From: Anaeromyxobacter diazotrophicus | GTDB lineage: Bacteria; Myxococcota; Myxococcia; Myxococcales; Anaeromyxobacteraceae | DNA: 64,000 nucleotides | Reading direction: 5' to 3' | Assembly (NCBI RefSeq): GCF_013340205.1 | Contig: NZ_BJTG01000003.1 | Span: forward strand, 310,001 to 374,000 | Shown here: positions 17,270 to 46,982 of the stretch, in pieces | How positions within the stretch are numbered: the first letter of the stretch is position 1 | Layout of the letters: each line of letters opens with the position of its first letter | Notes under the pieces: model-generated | Told to the model about the DNA's origin: nothing | What the model saw: only the letters and a program-made list of their open reading frames with translations | Database searches by the model: none | Translations under genes and position numbers: made by a program

Positions 17270-18321
17270 TAGTGGAGCTCCTCGCCGGCCGCGCCCTCGG
17301 CGGCCGCCGCGGGCGCGAACGCCTCGCCGTCGTCGGGGAAGTGGAGGTCGATGAGGCGCCGCACGTCGTCCGCGGTCTCGAGCCGGTCGGCGTCGCGCCG
17401 GAAGTGCAGGCCGCCGCGCCGGCCGCGCGTGTACCAGAGGAGGTGCTTGCGGAGCTCGCGCAGCGCGTGGCGCTCCGCGGCGTCGGCCGCCTCCGCCGGG
17501 AGCTGCCGGCGGCGGTGCTCGATCTGGAGCGCCACGTGGCGCAGCACCACCTCCGCCCACGCGCCGCGGGTGGGCGGGGGCGGCGGCGCCTCGCCGCGCT
17601 CGGCGGCCCGGAGCTCGCTGAAGATCCAGGGGTTCCCGCAGGCGCCGCGCGCCACCAGCACCGCGTCGCAGCCGGTCTCGGCGCGCATGCGCAACGCGTC
17701 CGCGGCGGTCCACACGTCGCCCGACCCCAGCACCGGGATGGAGACGGCCCGCTTCACCGCCGCCACGAACTCCCAGCGCGCCTGGCCGGCGTAGCCCTGG
17801 GCGCGGGTGCGGCCGTGGAGCGCCACGGCGCTCGCGCCGCCGGCCTCGGCCGCGCGCGCCACCTCGACGCAGTTGAGGTTCGCGTCGTCCCAGCCGGCGC
17901 GGATCTTGACCGAGACCGGCACCCCGCCCGCCTCGCGCACCGCGCGGACGGCCGCCTCCACCGCGGCGGGGTCGCGGGCGAGCGACGCGCCGGCGCCCGT
18001 GCCGCAGACCTTCTTCACCGGGCAGGCCATGTTGATGTCGACGAGCCCTGCGCCGTGGCGGACCGCCGCCTCGGCGCCGCGGGCGAGCGCGTCCGGCTCG
18101 GCGGCGAAGATCTGCACGGCGAACGGGACCTCCTCCGGGTCGCGGTCGAGGTAGGAGAGCGTCTGGCGCGTCTCGTGGAGGAGCCCGTGCGCCGAGACCA
18201 TCTCGGTGTAGGCGAAGGCCGCCCCCATGTCGCGGCAGATCTTGCGGAACGGCCGGTCGGAGACGCCGGCGAGCGGCGCCAGGAAGAATCGCCCGGCGAA
18301 GCGGTGGGGGCCGATGTGCAC
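17269..18321 (-). CDS. dusB: tRNA-dihydrouridine synthase
   Basis: 350-residue flavoenzyme that reduces uridine to dihydrouridine in tRNA D-loops. The N-terminal FMN-binding barrel begins F-L-A-P-L-A-G-V-S-D (13-22). The catalytic cysteine is C100 in N-M-A-C-P-V-K-K-V. The C-terminal helical part is complete and ends in an Ala-rich tail of about 15 residues. The GTG start is supported by AGAGGAA seven bases upstream; an upstream ATG would add 33 unconserved residues and overlap the divergent promoter region. First gene of a three-gene operon with fis-like and ZIP genes. Confidence 0.93.
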   Translation of the reverse strand: MHIGPHRFAGRFFLAPLAGVSDRPFRKICRDMGAAFAYTEMVSAHGLLHETRQTLSYLDRDPEEVPFAVQIFAAEPDALARGAEAAVRHGAGLVDINMACPVKKVCGTGAGASLARDPAAVEAAVRAVREAGGVPVSVKIRAGWDDANLNCVEVARAAEAGGASAVALHGRTRAQGYAGQARWEFVAAVKRAVSIPVLGSGDVWTAADALRMRAETGCDAVLVARGACGNPWIFSELRAAERGEAPPPPPTRGAWAEVVLRHVALQIEHRRRQLPAEAADAAERHALRELRKHLLWYTRGRRGGLHFRRDADRLETADDVRRLIDLHFPDDGEAFAPAAAAEGAAGEELH

Positions 18322-18412
18322 GTGGTTCCTCTCGCGCCCGTCCGCCTGGGGCGGCGGCAGCTCGCGGGCGCGCCGCACCCCGGGCCGGTTCGTGTTAAGC
18401 CGTCGCGAGAGC

Positions 18413-19930
18413 ATGCGCAAGCTCGGCGCGAGGTGGGCGGCGGTGGCGCTCCTGTGGCTGGCGGCCCCGGGCCCGGCCGGCGCCGCCGCGCGTGCGTACC
18501 CCGATCACGTCACCCTCGTCTACACCGCCGATCTGTTCGGCACCCTGGAGCCGTGCGGCTGCAGCCAGGACCAGCGGGGCGGGCTCGCCCGCATGGCGGC
18601 CGCCCTCGCGCGCATCCGGGCGGAGGGGCAGCCGGTCTTCTTCGTCGCCGGCGGCGACCTGCTCTTCGAGGGGCGGCCCGCGGGCGACCTCGCCGTCCAG
18701 CAGGAGCTCGCCGCCCGGACGGCGGCCCGCGCGCTGGCCGCGATGCGCCTCGACGCGTTCGCGCCGGGCGAGCGCGACCTGGTCCTCGGGCCCGCCTTCC
18801 TCCGCGGGCTGGCGCTGCCCGCGGGCGACCGGTTCACGCTCCGCGCCGGCGGCCGGCCGCTCGTCGCGCTCGGCCCACCCGGCGCGGTGCCGGCGGCGCC
18901 GGTGCGGATCGGCCTCGTCCACGAGGGCGGCACGCGCGCCGCCGCGGCGCGGGCGGAGGAGGCCCGGCGCGAGGGGCTCGCGCTGCTCCTCGCCTCCCAC
19001 CGCGGCGAGGTCCTCGAGGACGACGTGAACCGCGCGGCGCTCGAGGGTCCGGTGCCGGTGGTGCAGGTGCAGGGGCGGGGGCAGTCGCTGGCGCGCGTCG
19101 ACCTCTACCTGCGCGGCGACCTCGCCCGGGGCTTCACCGCGCTGCCGGACGCGGCCGCTCGCGACGAGGAGCTCGAGCTGCTCGAGCTCCGGACCGCCGA
19201 CTACGCCCGCCGCCGGGCGGGCGCCCTCGCCTCCGGCGCGGCCGAGCTGGCCCGCGCCCTCGACGGGAAGCTGGCCGAGCTCGCGGCGCGCGCGCGGGAG
19301 GTGCGGGCGCGCCCCGTCCCGGAGCCCCCGCGCGATCGCCCCTCGCTGGTGGTGAGCTTCGTCGCGCTCGGCGAGCGCCTGCCGCAGGATCCCCGCGTCC
19401 GCGCGATCCTCGACCGGCACCACGCCGAGGTGGCGCGCCAGAACCTCGCCCGGGCCCGCGCCGCGCCGCGGCCGTGCCCGGCGCCCGCGGCCGGGGCGGC
19501 GGCCTACGTCGGCACCGACGAGGCGCCGCGCGGCGCGGTCTCCTCGTGCAAGGGGTGCCACCCGGAGGCGGTCGCGCAGTGGGAGACCACGCGCCACGCG
19601 CGCGCCTGGGCGACGCTGGTGCGGGTGGGCCGGGAGCACGACCTCGCCTGCGTGGGGTGCCACGTCACGGGCTGGCGGGAGCCCGGGGGCGCGTGCGACA
19701 TCGCCGCGGTCGAGGGCCGGCGCGACGTGCAGTGCGAGGCGTGCCACGGGCCGGCCAGCCTCCACGCGCTGGATCCGCCCGGGCACCTGGTGCGGCGTCC
19801 GGGTGAGGCGGTCTGCCGGGGTTGCCACACACCCGAGCACTCGACGAGGTTCGAGCTGCGGAGCTACCTCCAGGGCGTGATCGGCGCCGGGCACGGGGAC
19901 GGGCTCCGCGGCCGAGATGGGCCTCCCTGA
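18413..19930 (+). CDS. Multihaem cytochrome c fused to a phosphoesterase-like domain
   Basis: 505-residue exported protein with a signal peptide (residues about 5-26). The N-terminal 230 residues resemble 5'-nucleotidase/metallophosphoesterase folds (V-Y-T-A-D-L-F-G, G-G-L-A-R, A-G-G-D-L) but the first metal motif DxH reads D-L-F, so phosphatase activity is doubtful. A CGC pair follows E-P. The C-terminal part has four CxxCH haem sites (CKGCH, CVGCH, CEACH, CRGCH) in a cytochrome c554-like arrangement. Likely a periplasmic electron-transfer protein. Divergent from dusB by 91 bases. Confidence 0.85.
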   Translation: MRKLGARWAAVALLWLAAPGPAGAAARAYPDHVTLVYTADLFGTLEPCGCSQDQRGGLARMAAALARIRAEGQPVFFVAGGDLLFEGRPAGDLAVQQELAARTAARALAAMRLDAFAPGERDLVLGPAFLRGLALPAGDRFTLRAGGRPLVALGPPGAVPAAPVRIGLVHEGGTRAAAARAEEARREGLALLLASHRGEVLEDDVNRAALEGPVPVVQVQGRGQSLARVDLYLRGDLARGFTALPDAAARDEELELLELRTADYARRRAGALASGAAELARALDGKLAELAARAREVRARPVPEPPRDRPSLVVSFVALGERLPQDPRVRAILDRHHAEVARQNLARARAAPRPCPAPAAGAAAYVGTDEAPRGAVSSCKGCHPEAVAQWETTRHARAWATLVRVGREHDLACVGCHVTGWREPGGACDIAAVEGRRDVQCEACHGPASLHALDPPGHLVRRPGEAVCRGCHTPEHSTRFELRSYLQGVIGAGHGDGLRGRDGPP

Positions 19931-37915: not shown

Positions 37916-38755
37916 TCACTTCCTGCGCGGCCACGTCGGCGCCCGGTCCACCTCGTCCGCCACGCTCGAGTTGTAGACGCCGGTGCGGTCGCCCGCCGGC
38001 AGGTGGTCCCTCAGGACGAAGTCCGGACGCGGCTGCGAGTTCACGTAGGCCGCGACGTCCACCGCGTCGGCGTCGCTCGCCAGCGGCGCGTCCGGCGGCA
38101 TGGTCGCCCGGAGCCACCCGGCGAGCTTCGGCACGGCGGCGAGGCCCGCGCCGGCGTTGTACGAGCGCGGCCCCCACACCGGCGGGTCGCCTTGCCCGTC
38201 CTCGCCGTGGCACGGGGCGCAGCGCTCGCCGTACAGCTTCCGCCCGCGCTCGACGCTCACCTTCGAAGGAACGAAGGCCGGCTTCGCGAACGAATGGGGA
38301 CCCAGCGGCGCCTCGGCGTTGAGCCGAACCGGCATCCCGGTGGACAACCACGTGATGTAGGCCGTGAGGGCGATCGACGGCTTGCTCCCCACGGGCGGCC
38401 GGGTGCCGTTCAGGCTCCGCATGAAGCAGTTGAGGACGCGGTCCTCCAGCGTGAGCACCGCCTGCTCGCGCGGCCCCCAGGCAGGGTACGCGGTCGCGGC
38501 GCCGAGCAAGGTGGAAGCCGTGGGATGGGCTCCAGAGTCGGGATGGCACGACGCGCACGAGAGCGCGTTCCCGACGAACGCCCGGGTGAGGGGGTGCGTC
38601 CCGGTCTCGTCGAAGAGCTTCTTCCCGAGCTTCACCGCCTCGCCCAGCTCGTCCGGCGGCAAGGCTGCGTCGGCCGGCTTGGCAGGGGGGCTCCGTGAGC
38701 CGGAGGCGTTCAGGGTGAGTGCCAGGGAGAGCGCGAGCAGGGAGGGGAGCGCCAT
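37916..38755 (-). CDS. Dihaem cytochrome c, TsdA-like thiosulfate dehydrogenase
   Basis: 279-residue exported dihaem cytochrome. Signal peptide about 1-20. Haem 1 is C-A-S-C-H at 67-71, followed by the TsdA signature N-x-C-F-M-R-S-L-N-G with C110, which in TsdA is the axial thiolate ligand of haem 1. Haem 2 is C-A-P-C-H at 179-183. TsdA oxidises thiosulfate to tetrathionate or runs in reverse; direction cannot be read here. It is separated from ftsZ by 150 bases containing a palindromic repeat. Confidence 0.85.
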   Translation of the reverse strand: MALPSLLALSLALTLNASGSRSPPAKPADAALPPDELGEAVKLGKKLFDETGTHPLTRAFVGNALSCASCHPDSGAHPTASTLLGAATAYPAWGPREQAVLTLEDRVLNCFMRSLNGTRPPVGSKPSIALTAYITWLSTGMPVRLNAEAPLGPHSFAKPAFVPSKVSVERGRKLYGERCAPCHGEDGQGDPPVWGPRSYNAGAGLAAVPKLAGWLRATMPPDAPLASDADAVDVAAYVNSQPRPDFVLRDHLPAGDRTGVYNSSVADEVDRAPTWPRRK

Positions 38756-41484: not shown

Positions 41485-42456
41485 CTAGAGCCCTCTCGGG
41501 CTCGCTACCTTCAGCTGATCGAGATGGGGGGGCGCAATGCTGCGCCCCCCCATGCCCCCCGCTCGCTCCGGGCCAGGCTCATTCGCCTGCCCCTGCGCTC
41601 GCAGGAGATCCACCTTCGCCAGCCGGACCGTCACCCAGGACGGGTGGAGCCGGTTGTCGAGGTGGAGCACCTCCGCCTTCCTTCCCTCGGCGCGGAGCGC
41701 CGAGAGCACCTGCTCGAGGCGGCCGAGCTTCGCCTCCAGGTCGCCCGTTCCGAGCCGGACCTGGACGCCCTCGTCGCCCACGTAGATCGTCGTGCCGTCT
41801 CCGGGATCGAGGTGGATCTCGGAGAGCCGGGCCGCCGCGTCGCGGCCGCCCTCGCGCCAGGCGCGCGCCAGCGCCAGCGCGCCCCGCAGCCGCGGCGCGA
41901 CGGCGTCGCGGCGCTGCACGTAGTCCGCTCGCGACAGCCCGGTCACGACCGGCAGATCGAGCCCGTCGCCGGCGGCGGCCCGCTTGAACGGCTCGCCCGC
42001 CTCGTCGACCAGGTACAGGCCCGAGAGATCGACCAGCGCCGCCGCGTGGCGCTCCACCACCCGCACCGTCAGCGCGGGGGGCCAGCTCCGGTGCACCTCC
42101 ACCCGGGCCACCCAGGGGTGGCGCGCCAGCGCCTGCTCGAGGCCGTCGACGTCGGCGGTGAGGAGGTGGTCGCCGGGGTGGACCGGGGAGAGCGCCAGCA
42201 GCTCGTCGGCGGTAGCGCGCTCCAGGCCCTCGAAGCGGAGGGTGCGGATGCGCAGCGACTCGGCGGAGCGGAGCAGGGCGGCCCCGCGCGGCGCGGCCGC
42301 CGCGGCGGCGCCGAGCCCGGCGATCGCGGTCACCAGGGCGAGCGCGCGGCGCCAGCGCCGCGTCCCGCGGGGCGCGGCGCTGCTCCCGTCGTCACGCCTG
42401 CGGTTCCGCCCGCGCCCCACACGCCGCTCCACGCCCCGCCACCCACGTCTGACCAC
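41485..42456 (-). CDS. ftsQ: Cell division protein FtsQ
   Basis: About 323-residue inner-membrane divisome protein. A basic cytoplasmic tail precedes a single membrane helix (about residues 38-58), then the POTRA domain (L-x-F-E-G-L-E-R-A-T-A-D-E-L) and the beta domain. The exact start is uncertain; this GTG leaves an upstream gap for promoters, whereas longer frames would collide with the divergent cytochrome gene. The last 20 codons run through a perfect GC hairpin and give a Gly/Pro-rich tail not needed by the fold. It is cut off from ddl by the inserted cytochrome island, so it needs its own promoter. Confidence 0.88.
   Translation of the reverse strand: MVRRGWRGVERRVGRGRNRRRDDGSSAAPRGTRRWRRALALVTAIAGLGAAAAAAPRGAALLRSAESLRIRTLRFEGLERATADELLALSPVHPGDHLLTADVDGLEQALARHPWVARVEVHRSWPPALTVRVVERHAAALVDLSGLYLVDEAGEPFKRAAAGDGLDLPVVTGLSRADYVQRRDAVAPRLRGALALARAWREGGRDAAARLSEIHLDPGDGTTIYVGDEGVQVRLGTGDLEAKLGRLEQVLSALRAEGRKAEVLHLDNRLHPSWVTVRLAKVDLLRAQGQANEPGPERAGGMGGRSIAPPHLDQLKVASPRGL
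41526..41551. repeat. Perfect GC-rich hairpin within the 3' end of ftsQ
   Basis: Arms GGGGGGGCGCA and TGCGCCCCCCC with loop ATGC. It is translated as part of the FtsQ tail (G-G-R-S-I-A-P-P). No T-run, so termination is unlikely; it may modulate ftsQ-ftsA mRNA stability. Confidence 0.55.
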
Positions 42457-42632
42457 CCGCCCGCTTCCGGCCGCTATCGCCCCAGCGCCAGCATGCCCGA
42501 TCGATCCCACTTTGCAAGTTCTCGACTCACATCCGCCGGCTGGCTGCGACGGCTTGCCGTCACACCTCGCTTGGGCTGCGCCCCGACCTGTGCGAACCTG
42601 CGGCGCCACTCGCTGCCCGGAGCGTCGACGCG

Positions 42633-42956
42633 ATGCCGGTCCTCACCCCACTCCTCGTCCTGATCGCGCTCGCCGCGGACGGCAGCGCGCGCGCGCCGAA
42701 CCGCCTCGCGCCGCTGCCCGCCGGGCAGTGGATCTCGACGCACGGGCCGTACGAGATGGGCGCCTGCAACGCCTGCCACGACCCGAGCGATCCGAACGCC
42801 CCGCCGGGCCGGCTGCGCAAGAAGTCGAACGCGCTCTGCTTCGACTGCCACGACGACTACCAGCGGCCGATGAAGGGGCACCCCTCACCGGAGGACGAGT
42901 GTGTCGTCTGCCACTCGCCGCACAATGCAAAGAAGAAGAAGCTGCTGTTGAAATGA
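42633..42956 (+). CDS. Small trihaem c-type cytochrome
   Basis: 107-residue exported cytochrome. Short signal peptide (1-20). Three CxxCH haem sites (C-N-A-C-H, C-F-D-C-H, C-V-V-C-H), the last followed by S-P-H-N-A-K-K-K-K, resembling the doubled-CXXCH family. First gene of a four-gene plus-strand island inside the dcw cluster. The next start is 210 bases away. Confidence 0.85.
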   Translation: MPVLTPLLVLIALAADGSARAPNRLAPLPAGQWISTHGPYEMGACNACHDPSDPNAPPGRLRKKSNALCFDCHDDYQRPMKGHPSPEDECVVCHSPHNAKKKKLLLK

Positions 42957-43166
42957 CATTGCACCACATTTGCGCACAGGGGTCGGTACGCCAATCGACG
43001 GCATCACACAGTGTCCGGCGTGCAGGGGACTTGGACCATTTCGATGACGCCGATCAAGGAAACCTGGATTGATCGTGTCCGATCATCGGCTGCAGATGGG
43101 CAGGCATCGCGCGTGGCTGACGGAACTAAGGCTCTGCTTCAGGGGCCTCCTTGCGGAGTGGATCGC

Positions 43167-44297
43167 ATGAGCTCGAGGAAGAGGTTCACCGTCGCCGTAG
43201 CTCTCGCCGCGCTCCTCGGCCCCGCCGCCGCCGCGGCCGCCCCCGCGCCAGCGGGCCCGGCCGTGCCCCTGCCGCCCGGCGTACCCGCCGAGCTCGCGGG
43301 CCGCCAGTTCAAGTACCCCATTGTACGGAAGGTGAACAACAAGCCGCTGCCCGACGGGGTCAAGGGCGCGAGCACGATGGCGCCCTTCGCCGCCGGCGAC
43401 TGCGGGTTCTGCCACCAGCGGAACGACAAGAAGGATCCCGGGCCGGTGAAGAAGTCCGGCAACGCGCTCTGCTACTCGTGCCACGAGGAGTTCGGCGAGA
43501 TCATGGCGCGGCCCTACAAGCACGTGCCCGCGCAGGCGCTCTGCACGAACTGCCACAACCCGCACAACTCGCTCGAGAAGAAGCTGCTGCACGAGGAGCA
43601 GACGGCGCAGTGCTTCGACTGCCACAAGAACATCCGCAACCTCACCGAGACCGTCCGGGTGAAGCACGGCGCCGTGACCACCAAGCGCAAGTGCGCCAAC
43701 TGCCATAACCCGCACGGCGCGAACATCGAGAAGATGCTCACCGCGCTGCCGTTCGATCAGTGCGTCGGCTGCCACTCCACCGACGACATGAAGGACTGGA
43801 ACGGCGTCACGCTGACGAACTTCCCCAAGCTGCTCCAGGAGAACCCGGTCTGGCACAAGCCGGTGGCCGCCAAGGACTGCTCCGCGTGCCACAAGACCCA
43901 CGGCGGCGACAACTTCCGCCTGCTGGTCGCCGAGTACCCGCCCCAGTTCTACGCACCGTACGACCTCAAGACCTACGCGCTCTGCTACCGCTGCCACAAC
44001 GACAAGGTCGTGAGCGCCGAGCAGACGACCACGCTCACCAACTTCCGCGACGGCTCGAAGAACCTGCACTACGTCCACGTGCACAACCTGGAGCGCGGCC
44101 GCACCTGCCGCGCCTGCCACGAGGTCCACGCCGCCAAGCAGCCCCACCGCATCCGCGAGGGCGTGCCGTACGGCTCGGCCGGCTGGGTCCTCAAGATCAA
44201 CTACACCAAGACGCCGACCGGCGGGACCTGCGCCAAGACCTGCCACGAGACCAAGACGTACGTGAACAAGACGGTCTCCACGGCGAGCAAGAAGTAG
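43167..44297 (+). CDS. Multihaem c-type cytochrome with nine CxxCH and one CxxxCH site
   Basis: 376-residue exported cytochrome. Signal peptide about 6-25. Nine CxxCH motifs occur in order (CGFCH, CYSCH, CTNCH, CFDCH, CANCH, CVGCH, CSACH, CYRCH, CRACH), then a C-terminal C-A-K-T-C-H with three residues between the cysteines. Many are followed by N-P-H or K-T-H, as in doubled-CXXCH proteins. It should be a periplasmic or surface electron conduit. GGAG precedes the ATG. Upstream in-frame extension has no signal-peptide logic. Confidence 0.9.
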   Translation: MSSRKRFTVAVALAALLGPAAAAAAPAPAGPAVPLPPGVPAELAGRQFKYPIVRKVNNKPLPDGVKGASTMAPFAAGDCGFCHQRNDKKDPGPVKKSGNALCYSCHEEFGEIMARPYKHVPAQALCTNCHNPHNSLEKKLLHEEQTAQCFDCHKNIRNLTETVRVKHGAVTTKRKCANCHNPHGANIEKMLTALPFDQCVGCHSTDDMKDWNGVTLTNFPKLLQENPVWHKPVAAKDCSACHKTHGGDNFRLLVAEYPPQFYAPYDLKTYALCYRCHNDKVVSAEQTTTLTNFRDGSKNLHYVHVHNLERGRTCRACHEVHAAKQPHRIREGVPYGSAGWVLKINYTKTPTGGTCAKTCHETKTYVNKTVSTASKK

Positions 44298-44305
44298 AGG
44301 ACACC

Positions 44306-45145
44306 ATGCCCGGACTCCGCTCGCTCCCGTGGGTGCTCGCCGCGCTCGTCTCGTGCGCCCTCCTCCCCGCCGACGCGCTGGCGTTCACCAACGTGGCGGT
44401 GGGGGATACGCTCGAGAACGTCGAGCTGCCCACCCTGGCCGGCGGGCGCGAGGCGCTGCTCTCCCCGCAGGCGCAGGCCAACGTCTTCATCTTCTTCCGG
44501 CCGCAGCAGGAGAACTCGCAGCTCGCCCTCAAGGCCATCTCCGACTGCGAGCGTCAGCTCGCCGGCAAGCCCGTCCACTGGGTGGCGGTGGTCTCCTCCA
44601 GCTGGAGCGCCCAGGAGGTGAAGGCCTCGGTGGCCGCCGCGGGCGCACGCATCCCGGTGCTGATCGATCAGGGCGACGTGCTCTACGGCCGGCTGGGCGT
44701 GCGGCTCCACCCCGCCATCGGGGTCGCGAACGGGAAGCTCCAGCTCGTCGCCTACGAGCCGTTCCAGGCCATCAACTACTGCGATCGGATCCGCGGCACC
44801 GTGCGCTACGCGCTGGGCGAGATCTCGAAGGCCGAGCTGGCCCAGGCCGACGCGCCGGCGAAGGCGCTCATGCCCAACGAGATGAAGGGCGCGGTGTCGA
44901 ACCGCCACGTGCGCATGGGCGAGATGTACCTGGGCATGCAGCAGCCCGACAAGGCCGCCGCCGAGGCGCGCCTCATCCTCGAGCAGGACCCGCGCTTCGC
45001 GCCCGCCCACGTCCTCCTCGGCGACGCGCTCTCGTCGCAGGGCAAGTGCGAGGAGGCGAAGCTCGCCTACCAGGCCGCGGTGAAGCTCTCCCCGCAGCTC
45101 CTCGCCGCCGTGCAGCAGAAGAAGTCCCCCTGCGCCGGGCAGTGA
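44306..45145 (+). CDS. Exported thioredoxin-fold/TPR-like protein without a CxxC
   Basis: 279-residue exported protein. Signal peptide ends near residue 26 (A-D-A-L-A). The first 150 residues have an AhpC/thioredoxin fold pattern (N-V-F-I-F-F-R-P...), but the place of the catalytic CxxC reads Q-Q-E-N, so a thiol-disulfide role at that site is not possible. Conserved single cysteines occur in D-C-E-R and Y-C-D-R. A C-terminal helical repeat (M-G-E-M-Y-L-G...A-P-A-H-V-L-L-G-D-A-L) is TPR-like. It starts nine bases after the cytochrome gene. Confidence 0.82.
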   Translation: MPGLRSLPWVLAALVSCALLPADALAFTNVAVGDTLENVELPTLAGGREALLSPQAQANVFIFFRPQQENSQLALKAISDCERQLAGKPVHWVAVVSSSWSAQEVKASVAAAGARIPVLIDQGDVLYGRLGVRLHPAIGVANGKLQLVAYEPFQAINYCDRIRGTVRYALGEISKAELAQADAPAKALMPNEMKGAVSNRHVRMGEMYLGMQQPDKAAAEARLILEQDPRFAPAHVLLGDALSSQGKCEEAKLAYQAAVKLSPQLLAAVQQKKSPCAGQ

Positions 45146-45219
45146 GGGAGCCCCGCGCCACGATGCCGCTCACCCCGTCCACCCAGCTCGCGCCGGCACT
45201 CGACCTCAGGAGGTCCCCC

Positions 45220-45954
45220 TTGCGCCTCATCACCATCGGCCTCGCGCTGCTCTCGCTGGCGGCCGCGCCCTCCGCGAGGGCGCGGGTGGTGGAGGGCGAG
45301 ACGCTGGAGTCCGCCGAGCTCGCAACCCTCGGCGGCGGCGCCGAGCCGCTGCTCGCCAGGACCGCCACCGTCAACGTGATCCTGTTCTGGCGCCCGGGGC
45401 AGGACGCCTCGCTCGACACGCTGAAGCAGCTGGCGGCGTGCGAGAAGGCGTTCCAGGGCAAGCCCATCCACATGGTGGCGGTGGTCTCGGGCGCCTACCC
45501 GGCCGCCGAGGTCCGGGCGGCGGTGAGCGGGGCCGGCCTCCACGTGCCGGTGCTCGTGGACGCCGGGGACGCGCTCTACGGGAAGCTCGAGATCCGGCAG
45601 CACCCGATGGTGGTGGTGACGGACGCGCGCGGGAAGGTGACGCTCGCGCAGCCCTACGTGCGCCTGCGGTACTGCGACATCGTCCACGCCCACGTCCGCT
45701 ACCTCCTGAAGGAGATCGACGCGGCGCAGCTCCAGGCGGTGCTGAACCCGCCCGCCGCCAGCATGCCCTCCGACGACAAGGGCGCGGTGGCGCGGCGCTG
45801 GATCAACATGGGCCGGCGCGAGGCCGAGGCGGGCATGTGCGAGCGCGCGGTGGTCTCGTTCAAGAAGGCGCTCGAGATCGCCCCCGGCAACGCCGACGCC
45901 CAGGCCGGGCTGGCCGGCTGCGCCGGGACGAAGCCGGCGGCGCTGGCGCAGTAG
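45220..45954 (+). CDS. Second thioredoxin-fold/TPR-like paralogue without a CxxC
   Basis: 244-residue paralogue of the preceding gene (same layout; A-C-E-K and Y-C-D-I keep the two cysteines, catalytic pair replaced by G-Q-D-A). A TTG start is preferred: AGGAGG lies six bases upstream and the protein then begins with a clean signal peptide (L-R-L-I-T-I-G-L-A-L-L-S-L-A). An upstream ATG (45163) would give a poorer leader. C-terminal helices are TPR-like. It ends before a convergent junction with ddl. Confidence 0.78.
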   Translation: MRLITIGLALLSLAAAPSARARVVEGETLESAELATLGGGAEPLLARTATVNVILFWRPGQDASLDTLKQLAACEKAFQGKPIHMVAVVSGAYPAAEVRAAVSGAGLHVPVLVDAGDALYGKLEIRQHPMVVVTDARGKVTLAQPYVRLRYCDIVHAHVRYLLKEIDAAQLQAVLNPPAASMPSDDKGAVARRWINMGRREAEAGMCERAVVSFKKALEIAPGNADAQAGLAGCAGTKPAALAQ

Positions 45955-46055: not shown

Positions 46056-46982
46056 TCAAGCCTTGAGCGCGGCGCCGTCGAGCAGCCGCTCGCACAGCTC
46101 CGCGAAGGTGATGCCGAGGCCGGCCGCGATCTTCGGGACGAGCGAGGTCGCCGTCATGCCGGGGAGGGTGTTCACCTCCAGGATGTAGGGCACGCCGTCG
46201 GCGCTGACGATGAAGTCGGCGCGCGTCACCCCGGCGCAGCCCAGCACGAGGTGCGCCTGCTCCGCCGCCTCGCAGGTGCGCCGGGCGTGCTCCTCCGGGA
46301 GGCGCGCCGGGTAGAAGTACTGCGTCGCGCCGGGCGTGTACTTGGCCGTGTAGTCGTAGAACTCGCGCGAGGGGACAATCTCGATCGCGCCGAGCGCCTT
46401 GCCGTCGAGGACGGCCACGTCCACCTCCGTCCCCTTCACGTACCGCTCCACGATGAGCTCGCCCTTGTAGCGGGCGGCGTCGCGGCAGGCCGCCTGCAGC
46501 GCCTGCGCGTCGCGCACGATGTGGACGCCCACCGACGAGCCCTCGCCGGCCGGCTTCACCACCGCCGGCAGCCCGAACGGCAGGTCGGCCACGGTGATGC
46601 GCTCGGCCTGCTCGCGCGGGAAGACGCGGTACTCGATCACCTTGAGCCCGTGCTCCCGGAACAGCAGCTTCGAGAAGACCTTGTCCATGCCGAGCGCGGA
46701 GGCGAGCACCCCCGAGCCGGTGTAGGGGATGCCCATCGACTCGAGGAGCCCCTGGATCGAGCCGTCCTCGCCCCAGCGGCCGTGCAGGGCCACGAAGGCC
46801 ACGTCGGCGCGCGCGGCGCGCAGCCGCGCCGCCACCTCCAGGTCGACGTCGATGAGCGTCACGTCGTGGCCGCGCTCGCGCAGGGCGTCGGCGCACCCCT
46901 GGCCCGTGCGCAGCGACACGTCGCGCTCGCTCGAGCGCCCGCCGTACAGGACCGCCACCTTCTTGCCTGACCAGGTTCCCAT
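46056..46982 (-). CDS. ddl: D-alanine-D-alanine ligase
   Basis: 308-residue ATP-grasp ligase making the D-Ala-D-Ala dipeptide of peptidoglycan. Motifs: L-Y-G-G-R-S-S-E-R-D-V-S (13-24), the glycine loop E-G-S-S-V-G-V near 150, and the metal/ATP end I-L-E-V-N-T-L-P-G-M near 275. It lies 13 bases after murB. It is the last gene of the uninterrupted dcw stretch, because the cytochrome island follows in the opposite direction. Confidence 0.96.
   Translation of the reverse strand: MGTWSGKKVAVLYGGRSSERDVSLRTGQGCADALRERGHDVTLIDVDLEVAARLRAARADVAFVALHGRWGEDGSIQGLLESMGIPYTGSGVLASALGMDKVFSKLLFREHGLKVIEYRVFPREQAERITVADLPFGLPAVVKPAGEGSSVGVHIVRDAQALQAACRDAARYKGELIVERYVKGTEVDVAVLDGKALGAIEIVPSREFYDYTAKYTPGATQYFYPARLPEEHARRTCEAAEQAHLVLGCAGVTRADFIVSADGVPYILEVNTLPGMTATSLVPKIAAGLGITFAELCERLLDGAALKA

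Follow-up and report, generated by a model that had tools for sequence, protein, structure and literature searches.

A conserved multihaem cytochrome and redoxin-TPR gene island between ddl and ftsQ in Anaeromyxobacteraceae

Gene arrangement between ddl and ftsQ

Four genes, cytA, cytB, trxC and trxD, interrupt an Anaeromyxobacter-type dcw cluster between ddl and ftsQ, on the strand opposite to that of the cluster (Table 1). The locus lies in a 64,000-nucleotide stretch (the window) of Anaeromyxobacter diazotrophicus contig NZ_BJTG01000003.1. The first-pass annotation had described four plus-strand genes that break the dcw order here, and all of these open reading frames are present at that place and on that strand. 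Curated models identify rsmH, murE, murF, mraY, murD, ftsW, murG, murB, ddl, ftsQ, ftsA and ftsZ in the flanks, all on the minus strand. An FtsI-type PBP is also present, with spoVD as its best model at a score below cut-off, and murC is assigned from the translated reading frame only, not from a model. No model identified mraZ among the dcw flanking genes.

Table 1. Features at the ddl-ftsQ junction (window coordinates)
Feature	Position	Strand	Description
ftsQ	41485..42432	-	Flank; curated model match; likely true start about 42432
Putative ftsQ promoter element (ACTTGC..GGATCGATCGGGCATGCT..GGGCGATAGCGGC)	42465..42520	-	Conserved; from alignment and pattern
cytA	42633..42956	+	Exported trihaem c-type cytochrome, 107 aa, 3 CXXCH, Paired_CXXCH
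cytB	43167..44297	+	Exported decahaem cytochrome, 376 aa, 9 CXXCH and a C-terminal CX3CH
trxC	44306..45145	+	Exported ResA/TlpA-fold domain without CXXC, and C-terminal TPR, 279 aa
trxD	45220..45954	+	trxC paralogue, exported, shorter TPR part; start TTG 45220 probable
ddl	46056..46982	-	Flank, convergent with trxD; curated model match

Three of these genes are, or for trxD probably are, shorter than their longest reading frames. The cytB start is the ATG at 43167, the mechanical reading frame beginning earlier, at 43011. The TTG of trxD is preceded by a perfect AGGAGG and is probably the start, rather than the longest ATG start at 45163. The ftsQ gene also begins inside its reading frame.

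In base composition, the island genes resemble their neighbours. As the first-pass annotation had noted, there is no integrase or transposase among the four reading frames, and a search of the island edges gave no terminal repeats, the repeats found being haem-motif or low-complexity matches. Terminator-like sites show no clear excess over shuffled sequence, and a sigma-70 scan found no site. No porin or outer-membrane cytochrome gene is present beside the island in the window.

The cytochromes CytA and CytB

Both cytochromes have the properties of multihaem c-type proteins, namely several CXXCH motifs and an export signal, and the tri- and decahaem types first assigned to them hold. CytA orthologues occur in 12 genomes of the family, and their haem motifs are invariant in the alignment. 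All ten haem motifs of CytB are invariant in 17 aligned orthologues. CytB homologues share the C-terminal signature NLHxxHV...GRxCRxCHxxHA...GGxCxxxCHxxxxY, which is named by no Pfam or NCBIfam model. The CX3CH motif lies close to the C-terminus in 82 of the 93 homologues; of the other 11, ten are 16-, 26- or 42-haem proteins, and in one the motif is further inside. In complete genes, the number of CXXCH motifs ahead of CX3CH ranges from about 9 to 23.

CytB resembles MtrA/DmsE (TIGR03508) in its ten haem sites, paired-CXXCH repeats and profile similarity, but its score of 90.8 bits is under the curated cut-off of 192.2. It also differs in the C-terminal CX3CH, in the redoxin-TPR partner and in its neighbours, which are ftsQ and ddl, with no MtrB/PioB-type porin alongside. 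The score against the GSU2203 decahaem model NF041028 is 55.2 bits, under the cut-off of 325. The best PDB profile match (1.9e-25) is to a chain of 6r2q, which we take to be the MtrCAB complex; the PDB profile table names this entry otherwise. CytB is thus related to the MtrA/DmsE superfamily, yet should not be filed as a DmsE or GSU2203 member. An AlphaFold model computed without haem gave no confident structure for CytB (pLDDT 42).

The redoxin-TPR proteins TrxC and TrxD

In TrxC and TrxD, Pfam finds the TPR repeats only. Modelled with AlphaFold, TrxC reaches a mean pLDDT of 89 and is predicted to have a ResA/DsbE-type thioredoxin fold at residues 30-172, with ResA as the best Foldseek match (TMt 0.88); VIA-align of the same residues with ResA/DsbE gives a Z of about 19 and an rmsd of 1.8. 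ResA, DsbE and CcmG act in cytochrome c maturation. TrxC and TrxD share the predicted fold and export with ResA/TlpA/CcmG (DsbE). They differ in the added TPR part, in pairing with one cytochrome gene and in the active site: the ResA CXXC position typically reads F-F-R-P-x-Q-x-x-S (QxxS), and CXXC is absent from every homologue aligned. The first-pass description of two exported thioredoxin-fold/TPR proteins is therefore borne out in fold, TPR and export, but a function as thiol redoxins appears unlikely for want of CXXC, the defining motif, and the two proteins should not be filed as ResA/TlpA members. The two proteins were also compared with the CcmI/NrfG-type TPR chaperones, which bind the C-terminus of apocytochromes. 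Matches to PF23914, a CcmH/CycH-type TPR model, are below the 42-bit cut-off both for TrxD (E 0.0015) and for the homologue of an outgroup genome, G030 (5e-5).

A second CXXC-less redoxin-TPR gene is found in the same genome beside mreB (L139 6047-7039, G000:C8). It is divergent from a gene whose product joins a 7-haem protein to a cytochrome b561 domain; this layout is CbcL-like, and a 12-haem NrfH-like gene comes next.

Distribution and descent in Anaeromyxobacteraceae

The family was surveyed in 24 genomes of six genera (g1 to g6) by locating ddl and ftsA and reading the interval between them. The island is at the same dcw place in five genera (g1, g2, g3, g5 and part of g4), and the number of redoxin copies ranges from one to three. 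Several genomes depart from the full set. One from the window's own genus (G001) keeps cytB and trxD and has no recognisable cytA or trxC. In three others (G004, G016 and G019) only cytB is left at the junction, with its CX3CH kept, and no full-length trx homologue was found in these genomes. The island is missing, with other genes in its place, in G009, G013 and G020. In three g6 genomes (G006, G011 and G018) ddl is directly before ftsQ.

In a tree of FtsA, Ddl, MurB and FtsZ, g6 falls within one of two deep clades, both of which contain island bearers, so g6 most likely lost the island. The four outgroups (G163, G025, G070 and G030) have ddl adjoining ftsQ, which places the insertion on the family stem; by gene order and phylogeny, the island is ancestral to Anaeromyxobacteraceae. 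The CytB and redoxin trees track the species tree with a sole exception, the g6 genome G015. Here the dcw junction is empty and cytB-trxC-trxD is at another locus, and all three proteins group with g2, which indicates horizontal transfer of the genes as one block. Comparison of the ddl-ftsQ interval, proposed at the outset as a check, thus yields no random-insertion pattern in close relatives, and a recent insertion is ruled out by trees and synteny.

The island genes are under purifying selection. For orthologue pairs, dN/dS stays under 1 and is mostly 0.15-0.5; the two highest values are 0.64 and, for cytA at low divergence, 0.75. In the lineage without trx and cytA, the cytB stem branch is 0.64, as compared with about 0.06 for the sister pair. 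Such a long stem is as expected upon release from partner constraints; with alignment rows of unusual composition, it is suggestive only.

Other genes are seen at this junction in relatives: a multicopper oxidase gene where the island is missing (L042 5552-8167; L048 5786-8125), what appear by reading to be Fic-type and YbaK-like genes in G028 (L157 2718-4862), and a gene for an HNH protein in G010 (L040 8098-9396). In G005, a 304-amino-acid reading frame between ddl and the redoxin genes (L035 1938-2852) resembles REP-associated transposases by eye and has no Pfam match.

The cytB-trx pair in other phyla

Searching named genomes with the cytB alignment yielded 80 loci. Redoxin-profile matches number 52 in these loci, and 40 of them are directly downstream of the cytB homologue on the same strand. 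Record titles with adjacent pairs include Verrucomicrobia, Sterolibacterium, Holophagae, Desulfobulbaceae, Nitrospirae, Planctomycetes, Acidobacteria, Deferribacteres, Geomonas and Campylobacterota; as most of these records are MAGs, single taxon labels may be wrong. Among 195 Myxococcota genomes, a strong redoxin match (E below 1e-60) is found in 19, all of which also have cytB (19/19), while cytB is alone in five and 171 have neither gene. The association has a Fisher value of 4e-22, uncorrected for relatedness, with five families represented. No description of the pair was found in the open-licence papers searched.

Co-occurrence of the four genes elsewhere, another first-pass proposal, is therefore seen in part: cytB and trx are paired in many phyla, but cytA is a family-level partner outside the widely conserved pair. 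The pair itself is not obligatory. Of the 82 CX3CH cytochromes, 45 have no trx gene directly adjacent, and together with the three cytB-only genomes of the family these show that trx is not strictly required; a strict need for trx in CX3CH maturation is weakened by the same cases.

The surroundings of the pair vary. As at the window locus, it also stands alone among housekeeping genes elsewhere. At two loci, L052 (in G030) and L070, its neighbours encode a putative porin of 444-556 amino acids, a decahaem cytochrome and one more multihaem protein. The putative porins are barrel-like by reading and have no family match; the multihaem protein of L052 is lipoprotein-like and has Geobacter CxxxxCH motifs. 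These loci have the apparent layout of a porin-cytochrome conduit and are comparable to Geobacter-type Pcc conduits, the same three components lying beside cytB-trx, unlike the window island, which has no such conduit gene alongside. At L064, L066 and L124, genes near the pair or near a lone cytB encode NHL proteins, cytochromes that are small or undecahaem, and large proteins without assignment. This is a partial match to the Uet pathway, an undecahaem conduit described for Gallionella and Tenderia (PMC10734462, PMC5371394). The window island differs from Uet as well, being flanked by none of its components (undecahaem protein, porin, PPIase, NHL proteins). In Ca. Tenderia electrophaga, a TPR gene is apparently cotranscribed with three trihaem cytochrome genes and is proposed to align the cytochromes (PMC5371394); the island is similar in that a trihaem gene is accompanied by TPR genes. 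The word thioredoxin is absent from the main text of both papers.

A gene for an octahaem protein of about 345 amino acids, with an N-terminal 'NYPPDRS'-like segment, often follows cytB-trx (L072 9934-10953 and similar loci); it is seen in Nitrospirae, Geomonas and Campylobacterota records.

Proposed role of the island

The building blocks of the island are known, and their combination is conserved and has no name. We lean, with modest confidence, towards an ancestral envelope electron-transfer module of Anaeromyxobacteraceae, in which periplasmic relay cytochromes are served by a thiol-dead ResA-TPR chaperone or scaffold. Gene content, conservation, pairing, the loss of CXXC, selection and ancestry are the observations behind this reading, together with the predicted fold class; the periplasmic location is deduced from signal peptides only. 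Within the periplasm, decahaem CytB and trihaem CytA would relay electrons, probably passing them to, or receiving them from, an outer-membrane conduit whose genes are elsewhere. TrxC and TrxD would be chaperones or scaffolds dedicated to CytB, not thiol oxidoreductases, and their tasks may be apo-cytochrome holding, haem loading or partner alignment. From the kinship with maturation redoxins in fold, the one-to-one pairing with a cytochrome and the loss of the thiols, we infer holding or loading of the cytochrome in preference to disulfide chemistry. A more far-reaching version is rather unlikely. In it, CytB types would make up an unnamed, phylum-crossing family with the C-terminal CX3CH site as its hallmark, and the CXXC-less ResA-TPR proteins would form a new dedicated class of maturation factor. 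The thiol-dead ResA would bind the apocytochrome so that haem could be attached, or the protein folded, at the non-canonical site, much as the NrfEFG system serves CXXCK.

A purely structural task for TrxC and TrxD, in which they keep holo-cytochromes aligned in register to form a periplasmic bridge and take no part in maturation, is possible though doubtful. The TPR domains, the missing CXXC and the alignment proposed for the Tenderia TPR protein (PMC5371394) are in keeping with it, but the TrxC domain is nearest to the redoxins of cytochrome c maturation. A decaying island, or a random insertion that has persisted by chance, is very improbable. The losses in g6, the replacements and the reductions to cytB could be read in this way, as could the unrelated genes at the same junction in relatives. 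Retention in place by five genera, invariant haem motifs and dN/dS below 1 stand against it, and recurrence of the pair across phyla, together with inheritance of the island, argues for a real electron-transfer unit. The first-pass suggestion of an uncharacterised electron-transfer module is strengthened by the cross-phylum pair and the ancestry, but does not extend as a whole beyond the family, given the restricted range of cytA.

As a conserved pair present in many phyla, the cytochrome and the redox-dead ResA-TPR protein would be a unit of envelope electron transfer that had no name before, and cytB-trx would mark electron-transfer capacity in genomes without a known conduit. With a ResA-like protein that has lost its CXXC, it can be tested whether a maturation enzyme has turned into a chaperone, and natural losses in A. 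dehalogenans-like strains, where cytB is kept and its partners are gone, provide ready comparisons.

Position next to the cell division genes

The ddl-ftsQ position in many genomes, and the second CXXC-less redoxin beside mreB, might point instead to a non-respiratory envelope function, such as redox sensing or a role in oxidative stress, with a possible link to division. This appears quite improbable: outside the family the pair is in unrelated surroundings, often near multihaem cytochromes, island-less relatives keep an ordinary dcw cluster, and the mreB-side redoxin gene also has a multihaem/cytochrome b561 gene as its divergent neighbour. The only tie of the favoured electron-transfer module to cell division is its position.

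From the gene layout, it is plausible that the island separates ftsQAZ from the mraZ promoter. The element on the ftsQ strand directly upstream of ftsQ is conserved in island-bearing g1, g2 and g3 and partly in g5, and was not found by the same pattern in island-less g6 or in g4. Its conservation suggests that ftsQAZ may have gained or kept a promoter of its own.

Two further cytochrome genes were observed in the window. A SoxA/TsdA-type dihaem cytochrome gene (37916-38755, minus strand) lies downstream of ftsZ on the same strand, so that cytochrome genes are present on both sides of ftsQAZ. A reading frame at 18227-19930 on the plus strand displays four CXXCH motifs and a cytochrome c554-type domain.
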